A DNA stretch of 60,393 nt, taken from Armatimonadota bacterium. GTDB taxonomy: Bacteria; Armatimonadota; Fimbriimonadia; Fimbriimonadales; Fimbriimonadaceae. The notes beneath the pieces were generated by a model. That model was given only the letters and a program-made list of their open reading frames with translations. It was not told where the DNA came from and ran no database searches. A program made the position numbers and the translations under genes. The stretch lies in contig JAGQUX010000015.1 of the NCBI GenBank assembly GCA_020438215.1, forward strand, positions 1-60,393, written 5' to 3'. This document shows, in pieces, positions 49,569-58,675 of the stretch. The stretch's first letter is position 1, and each line of letters starts with the position of its first letter.

Positions 49569-51167
49569 CTACTTCACATCCGCGACGGTTGTCGTTGTAT
49601 GCGGCAAGTGACCAAAGAGTGACTCGCGCATATTTTGCAGACGCGGGCTTTGGAGTTCTACATCGCGTTGGAAGTAGATCGGAATCCAAACGGCATCTTG
49701 AAGTACGACGTCTTCTGCTTGCTGATACAGCGGCACACGCGCATCCCAATCCAGAAGAGTGTCCGCTTGTTTGCAAAGAGCATCGAACTGCGGGCTCGAG
49801 TAACCGAGCTTATTTTCCGGACCCCAAGTTGCGAGCATATGGCTCAGGAAGTTCTGAGGATCAAGATAGTCCGCCGCCCATCGCATGTGATAAAAAGCGT
49901 GCTTCTTGTTGTTGTAATCCTCGAGATACTTGCGCCATTCCATCGGTTGCACTTCGACTTTCACACCGAGATTTGCTTCGATTTGGCTTGCAACCGATTC
50001 CGCAACCAGCTTGATATCTGTATAGCCTTCGCGGTGAGTGAGAGTCAAAGCGGGCATACCCTTTCCGCCAGGGAAACCAGCATCAGCAAGGAGCTTTTGT
50101 GCCGCTTCAACGTTGTAATCAAAGCCAGCACCTTTATCTCTGTGGCCGCGCACTCCTGGAGGAACGATCGTGTTCGCCAGAGTGTTGACTCCACCCATTT
50201 GGACGTTGACGATCTTGTCACGATCAATTGCCATAGCAAATGCTTGGCGGACGCGCTTGTCCTTGAACGGCGCGTAGACTTCTTGGTTCAAACCGACATA
50301 CCAAATCGCCGGGCGATCTAGATAAACAAGTTGATCACCAAAGTCCTTCTTGACCCCTTCAATGTCGGAGCGTTGGAGTTGCACCAGATCGACTTCCCCG
50401 TTTTTGTACTTCGTAAGGCGGGTCGTTGGGTCGAGCATAATCGGTCGCTCAATGCGAGTGAGTGCTGGTTTGCCACCCCAATAGTCTTCATACGGCTCGA
50501 GGACGGCAAGCTGCTTGTCATCGTATTTGACAAGCTTGTACGGGCCACATCCGACCGCTTTGGTGTAGTCGGTGAGCTCGGAATCTTCGGGAACTACTTC
50601 CTTCGGCACAGGATAAGAGACCATGTAGGTGAGCTTGCCAAGGAAGTAAGGCGTCGGTTGCTTCAGCTTGAACTTGACGGTCATGTCATCCACGACCTCA
50701 ATGCCAGGAATGCTTTCTGCCTGGCCGTTGACCATCTCGGTCACGCCGATCACGTCGCTCAGGTACGCATCAGCGGTCGTTGATTTGAATGCTGGCCGAG
50801 CCGCGCGCTCAATCGACCACTTGATATCTTCCGCGGTCACTTGGCGACCGTTGTGGAATTTCACGCCTTCTCGAATAAAGAAGGTGTATTCCGTACCGTC
50901 ATCCGACACTTCCCAACGTTCTGCAACCAGCGGAACAACATTGTTGTTTTCATCCCAACCAACAAGCCCTTCATAGACTTGCTGGAGCATGTCCAGGGTG
51001 TCGCCATCTTGGACGATGCCCGGATCAAGGCTGGTGGGGTTATTCGGAACGGGGTACCGGAGAACGTTCTCTTGAACTTGGTTGTTCCGTTCAGAGAAGT
51101 TGCCTTTGCCGCAACCCACCACAATAAAGGCGGAAACGGCGAGCAGTGTCAGAGTGCTCAGCTTCAT
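49569..51167 (-). CDS. Peptide ABC transporter substrate-binding lipoprotein (family 5)
   Basis: A 532-residue lipoprotein with lipobox IVVGC (C19). The mature part is a family 5 solute-binding protein: NPTSLDPGIVQDGDTLDMLQQVYEGLVGW, VKFHNGRQVTAEDIKWSIERA, YTKAVGCGPYKLVKYD and DKRVRQAFAMAIDRDKIV. Family members feed peptides, nickel or other solutes to Opp/Dpp permeases, which are not adjacent. A TAAAAT box overlapping the recO stop gives it its own promoter. araC follows directly. Confidence 0.94.
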   Translation of the reverse strand: MKLSTLTLLAVSAFIVVGCGKGNFSERNNQVQENVLRYPVPNNPTSLDPGIVQDGDTLDMLQQVYEGLVGWDENNNVVPLVAERWEVSDDGTEYTFFIREGVKFHNGRQVTAEDIKWSIERAARPAFKSTTADAYLSDVIGVTEMVNGQAESIPGIEVVDDMTVKFKLKQPTPYFLGKLTYMVSYPVPKEVVPEDSELTDYTKAVGCGPYKLVKYDDKQLAVLEPYEDYWGGKPALTRIERPIMLDPTTRLTKYKNGEVDLVQLQRSDIEGVKKDFGDQLVYLDRPAIWYVGLNQEVYAPFKDKRVRQAFAMAIDRDKIVNVQMGGVNTLANTIVPPGVRGHRDKGAGFDYNVEAAQKLLADAGFPGGKGMPALTLTHREGYTDIKLVAESVASQIEANLGVKVEVQPMEWRKYLEDYNNKKHAFYHMRWAADYLDPQNFLSHMLATWGPENKLGYSSPQFDALCKQADTLLDWDARVPLYQQAEDVVLQDAVWIPIYFQRDVELQSPRLQNMRESLFGHLPHTTTTVADVK

Positions 51168-51175
51168 GACTTACC

Positions 51176-51181
51176 ATTTTA
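51176..51181 (-). promoter_or_regulatory. TAAAAT -10 box overlapping the recO stop
   Basis: TAAAAT on the minus strand ends 8 bases before the substrate-binding-protein ATG. Its first three bases are the TAA stop of recO. Confidence 0.45.
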
Positions 51182-51973
51182 CACCGCTGGGTCGGTGAGC
51201 GACAGGGTTTTCAGGTACGTGTCTGCCGCTTTGAGTGGCTTCTCAAGGATTGCACCCCAGAACCAAACCAAGGTTTGGAGAGCTTCCATTGCGTTTTTCA
51301 TCTGAGTTGGAGGTATTTCTAACTCAACGATCTTCTGCAATCCGATGAGCGCTTCTGCAGATATCCAGCGTGTATCTGAGTACCGCTCCGCCATTTCTTG
51401 ACAGATGTGTCCACCTGCCTGGGCACTCACGAGGGCGGGATTGGTCGTCATTTTGGTGTCGGTTTCAACACACCGCGTCCAATCAGGGGAGTGGCCTTCT
51501 TCAATCAATAGCCTTGCGAGTGCCCAGATCAAAACCACCTGCGGATTCTCGTGGGATTGCATGTGCCCCAGCACTTCGATCGCAAGGTTGTAGTACGCCT
51601 CATCCGGGCTGTCGTGAGGCATAGAGATCGCCACCACCTCTGAGAAAGCAATCGCCGCAGTCAAGCGATCAAAGTCAGTACGGAGCTGAGGATACGATGT
51701 GATCGGACGGACGTGGGTGACAAAACGTTGGTGACGCCCCTCCACCCATGTGAACTCGGCATTGACCAGAAGTTCGCTACTTCCTGCTAGGCGCGAGGCA
51801 GGTTTCTTTGCTCCTTTGGCGATAACGTCGGTTTTGCCGTACTCCTGAGTAAGTAAGGTCAGACGGCGGCTGTTTTCACCGCTATCTGACCTTTTGAGAA
51901 CGAGCGCGTGCGCTGTTCGTTCTTGGGAAGACGTTCTAGCTTCCTCCCAGAATTGCGCCCTGGAGCCATTCAT
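51179..51973 (-). CDS. recO: DNA repair protein RecO
   Basis: A 264-residue RecO, which loads RecA with RecR during gap repair. An N-terminal OB fold (ALVLKRSDSGENSRRLTLLTQEYG) is preceded by about 20 extra residues, since no start codon lies closer than ATG 51973. The helical domain contains SEVVAISMPHDSPDEAYYNL and the GGHICQEM region. The zinc-finger cysteines found in some RecO proteins are missing. The start overlaps the upstream membrane gene by 38 bases. It is the last gene of the glmU-to-recO unit. Confidence 0.85.
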   Translation of the reverse strand: MNGSRAQFWEEARTSSQERTAHALVLKRSDSGENSRRLTLLTQEYGKTDVIAKGAKKPASRLAGSSELLVNAEFTWVEGRHQRFVTHVRPITSYPQLRTDFDRLTAAIAFSEVVAISMPHDSPDEAYYNLAIEVLGHMQSHENPQVVLIWALARLLIEEGHSPDWTRCVETDTKMTTNPALVSAQAGGHICQEMAERYSDTRWISAEALIGLQKIVELEIPPTQMKNAMEALQTLVWFWGAILEKPLKAADTYLKTLSLTDPAV

Positions 51974-52655
51974 TCCAGATGTAGCTCATCCGGTCAATAA
52001 CCAGAGCAAAGCGAGCCATAACCGTAGAGCCAAAGATCGCACCAAAGCCGATCATCAGCATCCAGCGGCCCATCGTGTTGAGCCCGGTCAGGAACTTGCC
52101 TTTCAGTTCGAAGCTGAACAGGAAGTAGCTGAACGCGGAGATCAACGTAAAGATGAAGATCGCATTGGTGAGAGCTTGCGAAGCGTAGAGTTCTCCTGCA
52201 ACTGGCTGAGCAGGTACGAAGCTCCAAGTGGTTGGGATCACGGGCAGTGCCGAGCTATAGATCTGCGGACCATAGGTGTTCCACCAGACTTCCAGCTGTT
52301 GACCGGACCAAATGCCAAGGATGATCCCGATTGGAATTTTGCTCATCCAGTTGTGCTTCTTGGAAAAGACCATGTAGCCCATCAAGCCGATAGGAGCCAG
52401 GATGCTATAGATCCAAAAGCCGTTGGAGGCAACCGTTGCCACACCATCAGCGGAGACATCGGTTTTCCCGAGCATCTTGATCCACCATTCTGTGTAGAGC
52501 GTATCTTTCCAGGTTGCAACCAGCGTATAGCCAGCAGCGAGACCAAGATAGATATGCTCGAAGAAGCGATAGAACCGAGTTTCGCGGTAAAGAACGCTAT
52601 ATAGCCCAAATGTTGCGAAGACCGCAAGCGTCAGTTTGATTGCGAGATAACTCAT
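51936..52655 (-). CDS. Multi-pass membrane protein of the six-gene block (gene 6)
   Basis: A 239-residue protein with about six membrane segments (for example LAIKLTLAVFATFGLYSVLY, IYSILAPIGLMGYMVF, IPIGIILGIWSGQQLEVWW and MLMIGFGAIFGSTVMARFAL). It has a reentrant-looking loop with WKDTLYTEWWIKMLG. I do not recognise a family. The ATG overlaps the stop of gene 5 as ATGA. Its end overlaps recO by 38 bases. Together with genes 1-5 it probably forms a membrane complex. Confidence 0.75.
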   Translation of the reverse strand: MSYLAIKLTLAVFATFGLYSVLYRETRFYRFFEHIYLGLAAGYTLVATWKDTLYTEWWIKMLGKTDVSADGVATVASNGFWIYSILAPIGLMGYMVFSKKHNWMSKIPIGIILGIWSGQQLEVWWNTYGPQIYSSALPVIPTTWSFVPAQPVAGELYASQALTNAIFIFTLISAFSYFLFSFELKGKFLTGLNTMGRWMLMIGFGAIFGSTVMARFALVIDRMSYIWNEWLQGAILGGS

Positions 52656-53605
52656 GATCGTTTTGCTCCTGGCTTCTTGCGGGACATTGCCATACCGACG
52701 TTACCCAGCACAACGGCAAGGATCAGTAGGATGAGCGCAATGTGCAGCGTTCCGTAGTATTTCGAACCGCGAGCAAGCGTCTTCCCTTCGGTGATCTTCG
52801 GATACTCCTTGCCACCTTTGTTCAGAACCTTGATATTGCCATCTTCATCCTTCAAATTGACGCCGTTTGCCATGCAGTATTCAAGGTCGTAGACGCCTTT
52901 CAATCCAACGGCAACACCATTGACTTGCTTGGCTTGGTAGAACGGAAGAACCGTCGGACCGACAACCCCAGTCACCATCGCGCCGATGCTGACTTTCTTG
53001 TTCAATCGCTGAACCGCAACGTCAATCGAAGCAGAAGCGGTGACAACAATCATCATTCCCGCATCTTCAATCTTGCGGACATCTTTCAATACCGGCGATT
53101 CCCAAATGGAGATTTCACCAGCCCCGGCCTTCTTAGTGCGCTTACCGCTCCACGCATTCCGCAGGTCGATCCCCATATTGAGGTTGGTCGCTTCTGCATT
53201 TGCAAAATAACCCAGATCAATATAGTCTTCACCGATCTGATATTCGTAGAGCCCTTCATCTTTTCGCTCTTTGATAATCCGCGCGAGTGTTGTGCGGGCA
53301 ACCTGAGGGGCAATCGGGTCAGCCGCCGAGTAGAACACGAACTTGAGATTGCGGCTCATGAGCAATCGGAGCAGGTTTTCAAAGTGCCCCATGCTTTCTC
53401 CGCGAGTGGAGTTCGTCCAGTCGGATTGGATAATGACCGTCTTCCCTTCCGGAATATCCATGATCGCTTGATACAGATCCCGAGAGGATGGGTCTGGATC
53501 GGTCGGAATCTCGATAGTAATAAAGAGGCCGGCTGATACACACACCGCAAGAATCAGATAAAGAATCCGGCGGTCAACTGCTTGTAGTTTTTCCCAAATT
53601 GTCAC
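52652..53605 (-). CDS. Membrane-anchored Rossmann-like protein of the block (gene 5)
   Basis: A 317-residue protein starting at GTG 53605, which overlaps the gene 4 stop as GTGA. A membrane helix near the start (RRILYLILAVCVSAGLFI) and another near the end (TLHIALILLILAVVLGNVGM) flank a 240-residue domain with alternating strands and helices: GKTVIIQSDWTNSTRGESMG, NLKFVFYSAADPIAPQVAR and GMMIVVTASASIDVAVQRL. This looks like a Rossmann-type domain outside the cytoplasm, though the topology is inferred. No known family name can be given. Confidence 0.75.
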   Translation of the reverse strand: MTIWEKLQAVDRRILYLILAVCVSAGLFITIEIPTDPDPSSRDLYQAIMDIPEGKTVIIQSDWTNSTRGESMGHFENLLRLLMSRNLKFVFYSAADPIAPQVARTTLARIIKERKDEGLYEYQIGEDYIDLGYFANAEATNLNMGIDLRNAWSGKRTKKAGAGEISIWESPVLKDVRKIEDAGMMIVVTASASIDVAVQRLNKKVSIGAMVTGVVGPTVLPFYQAKQVNGVAVGLKGVYDLEYCMANGVNLKDEDGNIKVLNKGGKEYPKITEGKTLARGSKYYGTLHIALILLILAVVLGNVGMAMSRKKPGAKRS

Positions 53606-54531
53606 GACGATACACCACCTTTTTCGAGGCCGAGCCAAAGCCGAAGCCCCATGGCGAGGGCGCCGAGTCCGACGCCGAATTCAATTGCCCGGATCGCAGG
53701 GATTTGCATATTGGCTCGGAGCCAGCCCGCGACCACGGTGAGGTCAAAGTTCGTTAGGAACTGATTGCCTGTACTTTCCACGAGTCCGTTGATCCAGCCA
53801 CTCCACATAAAGGTGAGTGCGCCCATCAAGTTGAGCATGAGGATGAGGGCAGAAGCCATCATAACCGTTGCCTCAACTGATCGGATTCGGAAAGCGCGGT
53901 ACGCCGCCGAGAGGATGAAAAACGCGATCATGGAGAACATCGCCGCGTCCATCTGTTGGTACATCCCATCAAACAGGGCGTCGTTTACGTAGTTGGCAAA
54001 CTTCCAGTTCTCTTGTGAGGTGAGCAACGCTTCCGGGTCGTTGAATTGGCGCATGTTCCAATCCCAGAACCCAAAGATCGCCATGATCACCGAGCTGACG
54101 ATGAGAATCAAGCTGAATCCCCAGTCTTGAGCGCGTCGCCGGATCTTGTTGATATGCACGCGCATTAGCGAGAAAATCCCAAGTCCGAGGAGGAACGCAG
54201 CAAGGATGTTCGCGGTTTTGGCTACTGGGTCAATGGCAACCCCAAGCCAAGCGCCGAATCCTTCCACCGCGTTGCGTGGAAGTTCTTTTTCAAAATCAGC
54301 GTTGATCGGGCGTGGCCACAGATATTGCAACACAAAGACCAAGCCAGCCAAGAATGTGAAACCAACGATAATGTAGCGTCGGAACTGCGTTGGAATTGTA
54401 GAAAGCCCAAAGAACAAGAGCATCCCAATAATAAATGCACCGACCACACCGAGGATCAGACCCGTCGTGCCCGGGGCTTGTTGCCAGAAATTTGTTTCCG
54501 GCGGAGTGGCTTGAGCGAGGAATTGCAACAT
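53602..54531 (-). CDS. Polytopic membrane protein of the block (gene 4)
   Basis: A 309-residue protein with seven or eight membrane segments at about 24-45, 53-72, 105-125, 138-157, 192-213, 222-245 and 280-303. A polar loop after the second (WPRPINADFEKELPRNAVEG) may lie outside. I do not recognise a family. It overlaps gene 3 by one base (TAATG) and gene 5 by four. It may be the channel or scaffold of the complex. Confidence 0.75.
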   Translation of the reverse strand: MLQFLAQATPPETNFWQQAPGTTGLILGVVGAFIIGMLLFFGLSTIPTQFRRYIIVGFTFLAGLVFVLQYLWPRPINADFEKELPRNAVEGFGAWLGVAIDPVAKTANILAAFLLGLGIFSLMRVHINKIRRRAQDWGFSLILIVSSVIMAIFGFWDWNMRQFNDPEALLTSQENWKFANYVNDALFDGMYQQMDAAMFSMIAFFILSAAYRAFRIRSVEATVMMASALILMLNLMGALTFMWSGWINGLVESTGNQFLTNFDLTVVAGWLRANMQIPAIRAIEFGVGLGALAMGLRLWLGLEKGGVSS

Positions 54532-55502
54532 TATGCGCCCCCTCCTGCGTTAGCCGCTTCTTCTTCGCCTTCGTAATCAGGGTTTGGTTCCCGTTCGATA
54601 GTATTCATTTCTTCAGTAATCAAAGGATTGAAAAGCCGGTGAACCATTGTGTCGGATGCCGTTTTTCGTTTTGCTTCGCCCTCGTAAGGCTCCATCCGCG
54701 AAACCCCGCCTTCATCAATCCGCTGGACAGCGAGTGGCTGGAGTCGTTCCGCTGACATGATGAGGAAGCCCAGCATGACGTAAGCCGTCATGAGGATCTT
54801 CGCCCAGTCTTGTCCGAGGAGCGAACCGACGAGAACCGGCTCGCGGGTGAGGTAAGCGGATGCCGCATAGAATTCATCACCGATGAGAACGTAGTCACAT
54901 GCGGCAATAAAGAATGGCGTTTGGGTGGACTGGGTAGAACCCGCCACCTGAATTGCTCCGATGGAGTTACAAGTCTCAGCAAAAATCAGCGATTCTGCGT
55001 AGAACGCACCAAGAAGGAACGCCGCCGCAACTTTCTCGCGGAGGATAATCCCGGAGACACCAGCGGCAAATGCAAACTGCTGGTCAGAGATGTACTGGAC
55101 GCTATCAATAGAGTAGCGATCCGACATCCCTTGTTGCGAGTAAACGTCTCGGATGACTTCTTGAGCAACAGCGTAAACCGTAGCCCGCGCACAACAGAGC
55201 TTAATCGGGGTGGCGAATTGCGCCGCCGTCTTGGTGACTTGCGCAAAAATGTTCACCGCTTGGACGGAGACCGCATCAAGGTCACCAATCCCCGGAACCA
55301 TCAGAATCGGTCGCCCCATTTCGGTAGCGCGACCAATTGCGTCATCAATAGCGTTCAAACCGGCGATACGCCGAATAAAAAGGTTGCCTCCGGTTTTCTT
55401 TGCCCGTGCAATGTTGTACAGGATAAAGAAAACAACCAGAAGCGTCGAGAAAACCCCGAACCACCCTGTGTCTAAGTATTGCGAGCCTTGCAGAAAATTC
55501 AT
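54531..55502 (-). CDS. DUF6754-like membrane protein of the block (gene 3)
   Basis: A 323-residue protein with one N-terminal helix (GVFSTLLVVFFILYNIARA), then a Rossmann-like soluble domain with RATEMGRPILMVPGIGDLDA and TAAQFATPIKLCCARATVYA, a second hydrophobic stretch near 255-275, and an acidic tail (PDYEGEEEAANAGGGA). The pattern resembles DUF6754, a conserved domain of unknown function; this is from memory. Its ATG directly follows the TAA of gene 2. The 1-base overlap with gene 4 implies coupling. Confidence 0.7.
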   Translation of the reverse strand: MNFLQGSQYLDTGWFGVFSTLLVVFFILYNIARAKKTGGNLFIRRIAGLNAIDDAIGRATEMGRPILMVPGIGDLDAVSVQAVNIFAQVTKTAAQFATPIKLCCARATVYAVAQEVIRDVYSQQGMSDRYSIDSVQYISDQQFAFAAGVSGIILREKVAAAFLLGAFYAESLIFAETCNSIGAIQVAGSTQSTQTPFFIAACDYVLIGDEFYAASAYLTREPVLVGSLLGQDWAKILMTAYVMLGFLIMSAERLQPLAVQRIDEGGVSRMEPYEGEAKRKTASDTMVHRLFNPLITEEMNTIEREPNPDYEGEEEAANAGGGA

Positions 55503-55838
55503 TTAGGCGTTGTCTCCTACGTCAGTTGAATCAGAACCGCCAGGATCAGTTTCTTGATCCAGAGTCGTTTCTTCCAATCGAACAATTAATTTCTCCAGCG
55601 AACTTGGGCTTTGAATCAAGCGGCTGTAATCATGGACGTTCGACATCCCAATAAACGGCGCAAGAAATGGCGAGAGCGCAATCATGGACTGCCCTGCAAG
55701 CCGACCAACTGGCTTGTGAGATTCCAAAAGAAAAACGGCTGGGGTTGTCAAACCGCGCTTTGTAATTTGCTCGGTGACTTTAGTGATCAAGCTGTCCTCC
55801 TCCTCGGGAGTCAGTTCCTCGGTCCACAGGTCGTTCAT
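55503..55838 (-). CDS. Small soluble protein of the block (gene 2)
   Basis: A 111-residue protein with no signal peptide. The core ITKRGLTTPAVFLLESHKPV, followed by SMIALSPFLAPFIG and a helical SSLEKLIVRLEETT, looks like a small conserved helical protein, possibly a peripheral partner of gene 3. The hydrophobic middle (GQSMIALSPFLAPF) could touch the membrane. Its start is inside gene 1 (59-base overlap, different frame), with AAAGA before the ATG. The stop abuts the gene 3 ATG. Confidence 0.7.
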   Translation of the reverse strand: MNDLWTEELTPEEEDSLITKVTEQITKRGLTTPAVFLLESHKPVGRLAGQSMIALSPFLAPFIGMSNVHDYSRLIQSPSSLEKLIVRLEETTLDQETDPGGSDSTDVGDNA

Positions 55839-56313
55839 TTTCTTTCAGTGCGGCTATTTTGACCAATACTTCGTCTCGGTTGCCACGGAGACGAAGGTAA
55901 ACCCCTCGAAAAGCATCAAGTCGTGATGTTTTTCTGAGAGGAGAGAGGTTAATTGCCGTTTCCCCCTCCTCGATTCGTTTGACGTCCGACCAGTAGATAA
56001 ATGTCCGATTGAAGCCGCATTTCGAACTGGCACCCGTTTCGTCCAGGCGATATTGAATGGGCAAAAACATTTCTGTTGTAGAAGCGACGACTATTCCCGC
56101 TCCAAGAAACCCCACCAAGGGATGAAACAAGATTGTGCCGAAAAGAAAAGCCACTCCCGCACCCATAGCTACTATCCATTGCTTCGACCGATTCTCCTTC
56201 CCCAGGTGGACAGACCACTCCAACGGCTCAATAGTTTGAACCTCGCTATGGCCTGCATCCCCAGATTCTGTGGACTCTAATACGTCCCCAACCTCATCAA
56301 TCGGTTCCGTCAT
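55780..56313 (-). CDS. Membrane protein with PH-like domain (gene 1)
   Basis: A 177-residue protein. The acidic N-terminal part (about 1-40) precedes two adjacent membrane helices (about 46-85) and a beta-rich domain with FLPIQYRLDETGASS, FIYWSDVKRIEEGETAINLSPLR and FRGVYLRLRGNRDEVLVKI. This arrangement resembles bacterial PH (bPH/YdbT-like) domains. ATG 56313 shares one base with the prs stop (TAATG), which is why I prefer it to ATG 56322. The tail encodes the overlap with gene 2. Confidence 0.75.
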   Translation of the reverse strand: MTEPIDEVGDVLESTESGDAGHSEVQTIEPLEWSVHLGKENRSKQWIVAMGAGVAFLFGTILFHPLVGFLGAGIVVASTTEMFLPIQYRLDETGASSKCGFNRTFIYWSDVKRIEEGETAINLSPLRKTSRLDAFRGVYLRLRGNRDEVLVKIAALKENERPVDRGTDSRGGGQLDH

Positions 56314-57257
56314 TAATGCCAATCGTTGAAAAGAGTGGAAACCGATTCGTTGAAGTGGATGCGTTTGATCGCTTCTCCAAGCAAAGGTGCGCTAGGGAGT
56401 ACGTGCAATTTCGCAAATTCTTTCTCGTTTGTAATCGGGATTGTATCAAGACAAATCACTTTTGAGAAGATGCTGTCTTGCAAACGGTTAGCCGCACTGC
56501 CGCTAAAGATAGGGTGCGTACAACACGCAATGACATCAGTTGCGCCGCGATTGCGAAGCGCCTCCGCTCCCTGAATGATGGAGCCACCCGTATCAATCAT
56601 GTCGTCAATCATGATGCACCGTTTACCGTTGACATCACCGATAATCTCCATGATGTCCACCTTATTGGGCTCAGGACGACGCTTAGCGATGATCGCAATT
56701 GGACTGCTCAGCTGTTCCGCAAGGGCGCGAGCACGAGCAACACCTCCCACGTCCGGGCTGACAACAACAACGTCGTCTTGATCTTTGTAGCCGGCCTCAA
56801 TCAAGTGGCGACCGAGAATCGGGCCGCCATAAAGGTGGTCGACGGGAATATCAAAGAAACCTTGAATCTGCTCGGCGTGGAGATCAATCGCTACAACACG
56901 GTGCGCCCCCGCTTCGACAATCAAATCAGCAACCAATCGCGCGGTAACTGGCTCACGGGGCTTGGTCTTTTTATCTTGGCGAGCATAGCCATAGTACGGC
57001 ATCACAACTGTAATGCGGCTCGCACTGGCCCGGCGGAAGGCATCCAGCATGATGAGAAGTTCCATGATGGATTCGTTGACCGGTGCGCAAGTCGGTTGAA
57101 CAATAAATACGTCGTTGCCGCGTGCACTTTCATCCACCATCAAGCGGATTTCGCCATCGCTGAACTTTGTTGATGTGAGCCGCCCAAGCTCAATCCCCAG
57201 ATGTTCAGCAATCCGGCGCGCTAACGCCTTGTTTGCATTGCCCGCAAAGAGCTTCAT
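56313..57257 (-). CDS. prs: Ribose-phosphate pyrophosphokinase
   Basis: A 314-residue PRPP synthase that feeds purine, pyrimidine, histidine and tryptophan synthesis. It shows MKLFAGNANKALARRIAEHLG, SARGNDVFIVQPTCAPVN, the DLHAEQIQGFFDIPVDHLYG loop and the PRPP motif MIDDMIDTGGSI. ATG 57257 fits the family start and lies 5 bases after the glmU stop. It links nucleotide supply to the glmU operon, as in Bacillus. PRPP is also used by upp, read divergently from glmU nearby. Confidence 0.96.
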   Translation of the reverse strand: MKLFAGNANKALARRIAEHLGIELGRLTSTKFSDGEIRLMVDESARGNDVFIVQPTCAPVNESIMELLIMLDAFRRASASRITVVMPYYGYARQDKKTKPREPVTARLVADLIVEAGAHRVVAIDLHAEQIQGFFDIPVDHLYGGPILGRHLIEAGYKDQDDVVVVSPDVGGVARARALAEQLSSPIAIIAKRRPEPNKVDIMEIIGDVNGKRCIMIDDMIDTGGSIIQGAEALRNRGATDVIACCTHPIFSGSAANRLQDSIFSKVICLDTIPITNEKEFAKLHVLPSAPLLGEAIKRIHFNESVSTLFNDWH

Positions 57258-57262
57258 GCCGG

Positions 57263-58675
57263 TCAACGGCCTTTCTCCGTCGATTGTTGCTCTAGCTTTC
57301 GCTTCCGCCACGTTTTGAACCATTCTTCTTTGATCTCCTGCTTCCCACGCCCGATAGTCATTGCCCCATCGGGTACATCTCGATTCACCACACTTCCCGC
57401 TGCAACCATTGCTTCATCTCCGATATTGAGAGGAGCCACCAAAGTCGAGTTGCTACCCACAAACGTATCTTGCCCGATTTTGGTGATGTGTTTGTTGAAA
57501 CCGTCGTAATTGCACGTGATTGTGCCGGCCCCAATATTCGTTCTTGCGCCAATCTCCGCATCACCCAGGTAGGTCAAGTGAGAAACGCTGACATCTTCAT
57601 GCAATGTCGCGTTTTTGACTTCGACATAGTTCCCCACCTTGACGCGATCTTCCAGCAATGCCTTCGGGCGGATATTTGCGAAAGGTCCGACCCGCACTTC
57701 ATCAGTAATTCGGCATTGATTCATGTGTGACATAAAAACGTGACATCCATTGCCGATTTGGGCATCGCGGATGAAGCAGTGTGGGCCAATCATATTGTCT
57801 TGTCCCATCACAACTTTGCCCTGAAGAAAACAACCAGGGAGAATTGTTGTGCCTGCTCCGATCTGAACATTACCGCCGATCCAAGTTGAATGGGGATCAA
57901 CGATATGCACGCCGTTCATAGCATGAGACTTCAGGATGCGCTGGTTCAGTTTCCCTGCCGCTGCGGCAAGCTGCCACCGGTCATTCACACCAAGGAACTC
58001 ATCCGCATCGTCAAAGTGAACTGCATCAAGCCCTGCTCCCTCGCTCGCAATCATTGAGATCACATCGGGCAGATAGTATTCGCCCTGGGCGTTGTCATTC
58101 TTGACCTGCGGGAGCAACCGGAAAAGCGTTGGGCCATCAAAGCAGTAAACCGCCGGATTAACTTCCTTGATTGCTCGCTGCTCTTCGGAAGCATCTTTAT
58201 GTTCAACGATTCCCGTGACCTTGCCTTCTCCATCACGAAGGATGCGCCCATATCCCGTGGGATCATCCAGTGAAAAAGTCGCGAGAACGCACTTGGCACC
58301 GGATTCTTGCTGTTGTTTGACAAGGCTCGCGAGCGTTGCTCCGCTGAGCAATGGGGTATCCCCCGCCAAGACCAGCACCGACCCTTGAAAATCTCCTAAT
58401 AACGGTGTGGCTTGCTGAGTGGCGTGGGCAGTTCCGAGTCGCTCGGTTTGCTCAACAAATTCCAGAGGCTCGCTACTTAGGCTCTCACGGACGAGATCGG
58501 CACCATTCCCGATGACCGTGACAATTCGATCTGCGCCAGCTTCTTGGGCCGCGCGCACAACCCAGAGAGCCATCGGTCGCCCACAGGCTTCATGCAGCAC
58601 TTTCGGCAGATCGCTTTTCATGCGAGTGCCTTGTCCAGCGGCAAGAATAATAGCGGCAACAGGAGCAGAACTCAT
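57263..58675 (-). CDS. glmU: Bifunctional GlmU (UDP-GlcNAc synthesis)
   Basis: A 470-residue enzyme making UDP-N-acetylglucosamine for peptidoglycan and glycans. The N-terminal uridyltransferase has ILAAGQGTRMKSDLPKVLHEACG and the LAGDTPLL segment. The C-terminal left-handed beta-helix acetyltransferase shows repeating hexads such as IGARTNIGAGTITCNYDG and KIGQDTFVGSNSTLVAP. ATG 58675 is used because it begins the GT domain. GGTATCGT lies 17 bases before it. It leads the glmU-prs-membrane block-recO unit and diverges from upp. Confidence 0.96.
   Translation of the reverse strand: MSSAPVAAIILAAGQGTRMKSDLPKVLHEACGRPMALWVVRAAQEAGADRIVTVIGNGADLVRESLSSEPLEFVEQTERLGTAHATQQATPLLGDFQGSVLVLAGDTPLLSGATLASLVKQQQESGAKCVLATFSLDDPTGYGRILRDGEGKVTGIVEHKDASEEQRAIKEVNPAVYCFDGPTLFRLLPQVKNDNAQGEYYLPDVISMIASEGAGLDAVHFDDADEFLGVNDRWQLAAAAGKLNQRILKSHAMNGVHIVDPHSTWIGGNVQIGAGTTILPGCFLQGKVVMGQDNMIGPHCFIRDAQIGNGCHVFMSHMNQCRITDEVRVGPFANIRPKALLEDRVKVGNYVEVKNATLHEDVSVSHLTYLGDAEIGARTNIGAGTITCNYDGFNKHITKIGQDTFVGSNSTLVAPLNIGDEAMVAAGSVVNRDVPDGAMTIGRGKQEIKEEWFKTWRKRKLEQQSTEKGR

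Follow-up and report, generated by a model that had tools for sequence, protein, structure and literature searches.

Six open reading frames on the minus strand, referred to as g1 to g6, occupy positions 51936–56313 of the window, by which we mean the whole stretch of 60,393 nucleotides that was analysed, and are flanked there by prs and recO. The first of these, g1 (55780..56313, minus strand), encodes a membrane protein of 177 amino acids with a conserved core of roughly 130 residues, and g2 (55503..55838, minus) encodes a protein of 111 amino acids; both were delimited from their ORFs and family alignments, g2 also from its junction. They are followed by g3 (54531..55502, minus), a DUF6754 protein with a predicted Rossmann-like domain between two transmembrane (TM) helices and its N-terminus outside (Pfam, AlphaFold, charge rule), and by g4 (53602..54531, minus), a polytopic protein for which alignment and hydropathy of 38 homologues predict 7 TM helices, or 6 in short homologues. 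In g5 (52652..53605, minus) a Rossmann-like domain is again predicted between two TM helices, here with the N-terminus inside (AlphaFold, charge rule, junction), and g6 (51936..52655, minus) encodes a second polytopic protein with 6 predicted TM helices (alignment, hydropathy). The junction of prs and g1 reads TAATG, g1 and g2 overlap by 59 bases (55780–55838), and the remaining junctions are TAAATG (g2/g3), TAATG (g3/g4), GTGA (g4/g5) and ATGA (g5/g6), the start codon of g5 being the GTG at 53605. The six-gene run and all of these overlaps agree to the letter with a preliminary description of the locus. The name prs (ribose-phosphate pyrophosphokinase; 56313..57323, minus) was taken from that description and fits the translation, while recO (51179..51973, minus) was assigned by Pfam RecO_N/RecO_C and TIGR00613; both lie outside the system. 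The longest recO ORF begins within g6 (38-base overlap, 51936–51973) and its true start may be further downstream. A gene for an oligopeptide-binding lipoprotein (SBP_bac_5; 49569–51167) comes after recO in the window and in many related loci.

Profile searches showed the product of g3, previously termed DUF6754-like, to be a full member of DUF6754 (PF20539; E 3.7e-92, 308.5 bits against a cut-off of 27). No above-cut-off match in Pfam or NCBIfam was obtained for g1, g2, g4, g5 or g6. The earlier reading of g1 as PH-like was not confirmed, no PH or bPH match being present in Pfam profiles or PDB sequences. Family alignment of g1, which was found in 79 fetched loci, revealed two invariant residues, S124 and R136, within LSP..SRL..FRGV, and that of g2 a conserved PA..xLE..KP motif. 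Profile comparison of g4 with g6 using hhalign stayed at background level. Matches to known unrelated transporters had been considered a possible outcome for individual genes; none of the genes gave a transporter match.

Conservation of the cassette was evaluated by scanning a single genome per species with the g3 protein of the window, the one scan on which the spread beyond the phylum rests. It returned 350 stretches encoding g3 relatives, and the best 80 of the 350 were fetched. The rest of the cassette was present in nearly all of these fetched loci, and carriers included loci labelled Fermentibacteria, Coatesbacteria and Zixibacteriota, with taxa as given in the records. The exact order g1-g2-g3-g4-g5-g6 on the g3 strand was observed in 59 of the 83 loci longer than 9 kb, and most of the remainder showed either a longer eight-gene order or apparent truncation at a contig edge. 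Median junctions along the cassette were −41, −1, −4, −1 and −4 bases. The grouping of the six genes is far above chance and their order recurs; their co-occurrence was confirmed across Armatimonadota and in Fermentibacteria loci. Some loci depart from the standard composition. Two copies of g3 lie side by side in L124 (8506–10271) and L172 (5031–8215), as do two copies of g5 in L171 (9831–11651), and these tandem duplications within the cassette suggest hetero-oligomeric versions. A reduced copy in L127 (7769–10180) consists of g3 and a 536-residue g4 only.

The longer operon order, g1-g2-mutL-bsh-g3-g4-g5-g6, was found in eight loci (L115 and L116 among them) and in L144, and occurs in Fermentibacteria loci as well as in several families of Armatimonadota. 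It adds a gene for a MutL-family protein and bsh, a gene for a soluble protein of about 375 residues with a mean column identity of 62% over 19 homologues. No Pfam match was obtained for bsh; the working name comes from the first third of its sequence, which on reading looks like a barrel-sandwich domain. Sequence searches of bsh, g1, g3 and g5 against solved structures gave nothing significant. Most of the Armatimonadota loci inspected do not have mutL and bsh beside the cassette. The window genome has a single mutL (614 aa, on contig C44) and a single bsh (on contig C38), and neither gene adjoins the other or the cassette; elsewhere the two often lie next to one another. The neighbourhood of the eight genes was not conserved and gave no clue to substrate or pathway. 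In two records labelled Coatesbacteria/Zixibacteriota (L096 and L102), two g3-g6 sets lie close to one mutL-bsh pair; g2 is positioned after g6 and no g1 was found in these loci.

The distribution of DUF6754, MutL and bsh was compared over 291 genomes of the phylum, of which 252, 261 and 265, respectively, carry them. With MutL matches of E roughly 1e-6 to 1e-4 scored as absent, and genomes outside the matches listed placed by elimination, all three were absent from 20 genomes. On this scoring, pairwise Fisher tests gave P values of 2e-16, 3e-15 and 7e-22, which ignore kinship and so overstate independence. Ten of the 20 triple-absent genomes are at least 90% complete (G001, G002, G003, G046, G048, G049, G051, G133, G134 and G253), and these ten also lack g5. 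They belong to families f1, f6, f13 and f41, and since other genera of f1, f13 and f41 retain the system, family membership, taken by itself, suggests at least three independent joint losses. The three good genomes without DUF6754 but with MutL and bsh (G004, G012 and G196) are fragmented assemblies. A PilM_2 match was obtained in 11 out of 12 cassette-less genomes tested, G133 being the exception, and MreB is present in cassette-less genomes as it is in all 38 genomes tested; the gaps are therefore not general assembly gaps. G133 is from the same family as the window genome, and its prs and recO are separated by 9 bases, an exact empty site. The proposal that the locus encodes one conserved functional unit thus held, while its size did not: because the MutL-family protein and bsh share both operon and loss pattern with the six genes, the set was amended from six to eight. 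A unit of eight genes, comprising the six-gene cassette, the MutL-family ASKHA protein and bsh, is well supported.

AlphaFold models were made for g5 (pLDDT 95.7, pTM 0.91; 82 natural homologues) and g3 (pLDDT 85, pTM 0.74; 97 natural homologues). Both contain an alternating alpha/beta, Rossmann-like domain between two long helices. With Foldseek, neither model matched a structure at E 0.001. VIA-align placed both among Rossmann-like folds with best Z-scores of 11.4 (g3) and 8.9 (g5) that were tied with many families, and entries common to both lists were MTH0777 (1kjn; Z 10.4 for g3 and 8.9 for g5), CODH epsilon (10.1 and 7.2–8.1), transhydrogenase domain III (10.3 and 7.3) and MthK RCK (9.9 and 8.0). 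Mean Lys/Arg counts for g3 were 0.8 before and 4.9 after TM1, which by the positive-inside rule places its domain in the cytoplasm. For g5 they were 3.1 before and 1.1 after TM1, and 1.8 before and 4.0 after the last helix. In other lineages apparent signal peptides and FN3-like domains precede g3, the FN3 on g3 of L171 being above the Pfam cut-off (31.0 bits), and these additions agree with an N-out orientation. Taken with the charge rule, they indicate that the g5 domain is probably extracytoplasmic and the g3 domain probably cytoplasmic. In the model, the invariant g3 residues G165, E170, Q194, P196, D203 and E210 are located at the ends of strands or close to them, an arrangement like that of a ligand site. 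The shared architecture suggested at the outset, with the domains of g3 and g5 on either side of a membrane, was accordingly upheld for fold class and predicted sidedness; homology in sequence was not, as hhalign comparison of the two profiles remained at background.

The mutL product is a member of PF13941 with E of roughly 1e-124 to 1e-128 (2.4e-128 in the window genome, G000). Its ASKHA motifs, D12-CGSTTTK, D306-IGGATTD and G440-SGG, are invariant in 16 homologues, so that the phosphate 1, phosphate 2 and adenosine motifs are intact and MutL is a candidate ATP-binding, actin-like (ASKHA) ATPase that would use ATP. The homologous ASKHA core, with phosphate and adenosine motifs conserved, is found in GlmL/MutL of glutamate mutase operons (PF13941, NF040745, TIGR01319). 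GlmL has about 460–480 residues, whereas the present MutL has about 600–640 with an extra C-terminal stretch, and its operon partner is a membrane cassette rather than a glutamate mutase operon. Scores against the NCBIfam GlmL models were all below cut-off (227.6 against 475, 209.7 against 600 and 184.4 against 204.05 bits). The glutamate mutase E subunit (PF06368) was above cut-off in 1 of the 291 genomes and absent from the window genome, and methylmalonyl-CoA mutase was found in 4 of 38 genomes tested; a role as helper of B12-dependent mutases was rejected on these counts. As the mutase is nearly absent and the GlmL cut-offs are unmet, the name glutamate mutase accessory protein does not describe MutL here. 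No literature joining MutL, glutamate mutase and Armatimonadetes was found.

The same results bear on a reading in which MutL acts as a reactivase or chaperone for a membrane enzyme made up of g3 to g6, repairing it or loading it with cofactor in the way that has been proposed for GlmL. Its membership in PF13941 and the Rossmann-like domains of g3 and g5 with their conserved polar sites fit such a role; the scarcity of both mutases and the distance from the GlmL equivalog cut-offs count against it, and we consider it unlikely. Somewhat less likely still is a sensor or gating device, in which the outside g5 domain and a cytoplasmic RCK-like g3 domain would sense ligands and control gating of the polytopic proteins, MutL serving as the regulatory switch. 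RCK/TrkA-N folds are among the structural neighbours of g3 (Z 9–10), as MthK RCK is of g5, but these Z-scores are tied with those of many unrelated Rossmann-like folds, and neither an apparent nucleotide-binding GxGxxG motif nor a channel family match was found. The proximity of transhydrogenase domain III to both folds would suit a redox or ion-translocating complex with NAD(P)-type domains, resembling transhydrogenase. This was judged improbable: NAD(P) is not expected beyond the cell membrane, where one of the two domains is predicted to lie, a redox cofactor motif was not found and the fold similarity is generic. Chance grouping in a housekeeping operon without common function, to which the flanking of the cassette by both prs and recO in 23 out of 48 longer loci might point, is hardly credible, since the cassette recurs with other flanks elsewhere and the pattern of its loss as a unit along with two unlinked genes refutes it.

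The reading that we tentatively favour, as possible though well short of established, is an ASKHA-ATPase-coupled inner-membrane complex of eight components for transport or envelope assembly. In this complex g4 and g6 would form the membrane core, and the six genes together would supply the membrane part, while MutL and bsh, encoded elsewhere in the window genome, would supply the cytoplasmic part. On the cytoplasmic side, the ligand-binding Rossmann-like domain of g3 might serve as a docking site for MutL together with bsh and the g2 protein, and g5 would expose another domain of this kind on the outside. MutL, cycling with ATP, could act on the membrane core via g3, and something, perhaps glycan-related, may thereby be moved or assembled across the inner membrane. 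The physical complex, the fixed stoichiometry suggested in the preliminary description, the ATP coupling and the role in transport or assembly are all inferred. A transport or assembly role was preferred over a reactivase or a gated sensor because of the layout, with a cytoplasmic ATPase candidate, two polytopic proteins and an extracytoplasmic domain that bears conserved polar residues, and because of the lineage-specific ectodomains. These comprise the FN3 domains on g3 and an insert in the first extracytoplasmic loop of g4 in L127, whose resemblance to a GH32/GH130 propeller is weak.

ABC transporters with an extracytoplasmic binding protein have a similar layout of cytoplasmic ATPase, polytopic proteins and outside binding-type domain. 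The ATPase candidate here is of the ASKHA type instead, and no ABC ATPase or permease domain was found in the eight proteins, MutL and bsh being scanned as their homologues from L100. The alignment complex of type IV pili contains PilM, an actin-like cytoplasmic protein, and the inner-membrane partners PilN and PilO with alpha/beta domains. The general logic is alike, an actin-like protein being paired with membrane partners that bear alpha/beta domains, but the cassette and MutL gave no Pfam match to PilM, PilN or PilO, and the persistence of pilM-type genes in cassette-less genomes rules out a part of the pilus. Anti-phage defence was rejected, since none of the eight proteins matched a PADLOC model at E 0.01. 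A tie to MreB or LptD was likewise rejected, with MreB in 38 and LptD in none of the 38 Armatimonadota genomes tested; the Pfam LptD profile does detect the E. coli and Caulobacter controls. DUF6754 gave no match in plasmid records and is unmentioned in the open-access literature, and a broader literature query on conserved membrane complexes in Armatimonadota returned nothing relevant. In the searches run no known kind of system was matched, in line with the preliminary description, which knew of no system with such a set; ASKHA, FN3 and Rossmann-like domains are themselves known folds. More doubtful is the proposition that the eight genes represent an inner-membrane machine of a new class, with transport or envelope assembly powered via two opposite-facing Rossmann-like domains by a MutL-family ASKHA ATPase instead of one of the ABC or AAA type.

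DUF6754, whose only catalogue entry is that of a domain of unknown function, is here placed in an eight-gene system with a predicted topology and fold. A large branch of the MutL family, otherwise named, probably wrongly, glutamate mutase accessory proteins, also acquires a partner and a context. A set that is kept by roughly nine in ten genomes of the phylum, occurs also in Fermentibacteria and is lost only in its entirety must have a definite task, and the co-loss together with the clean empty site make the system testable in cultivable Armatimonadota.
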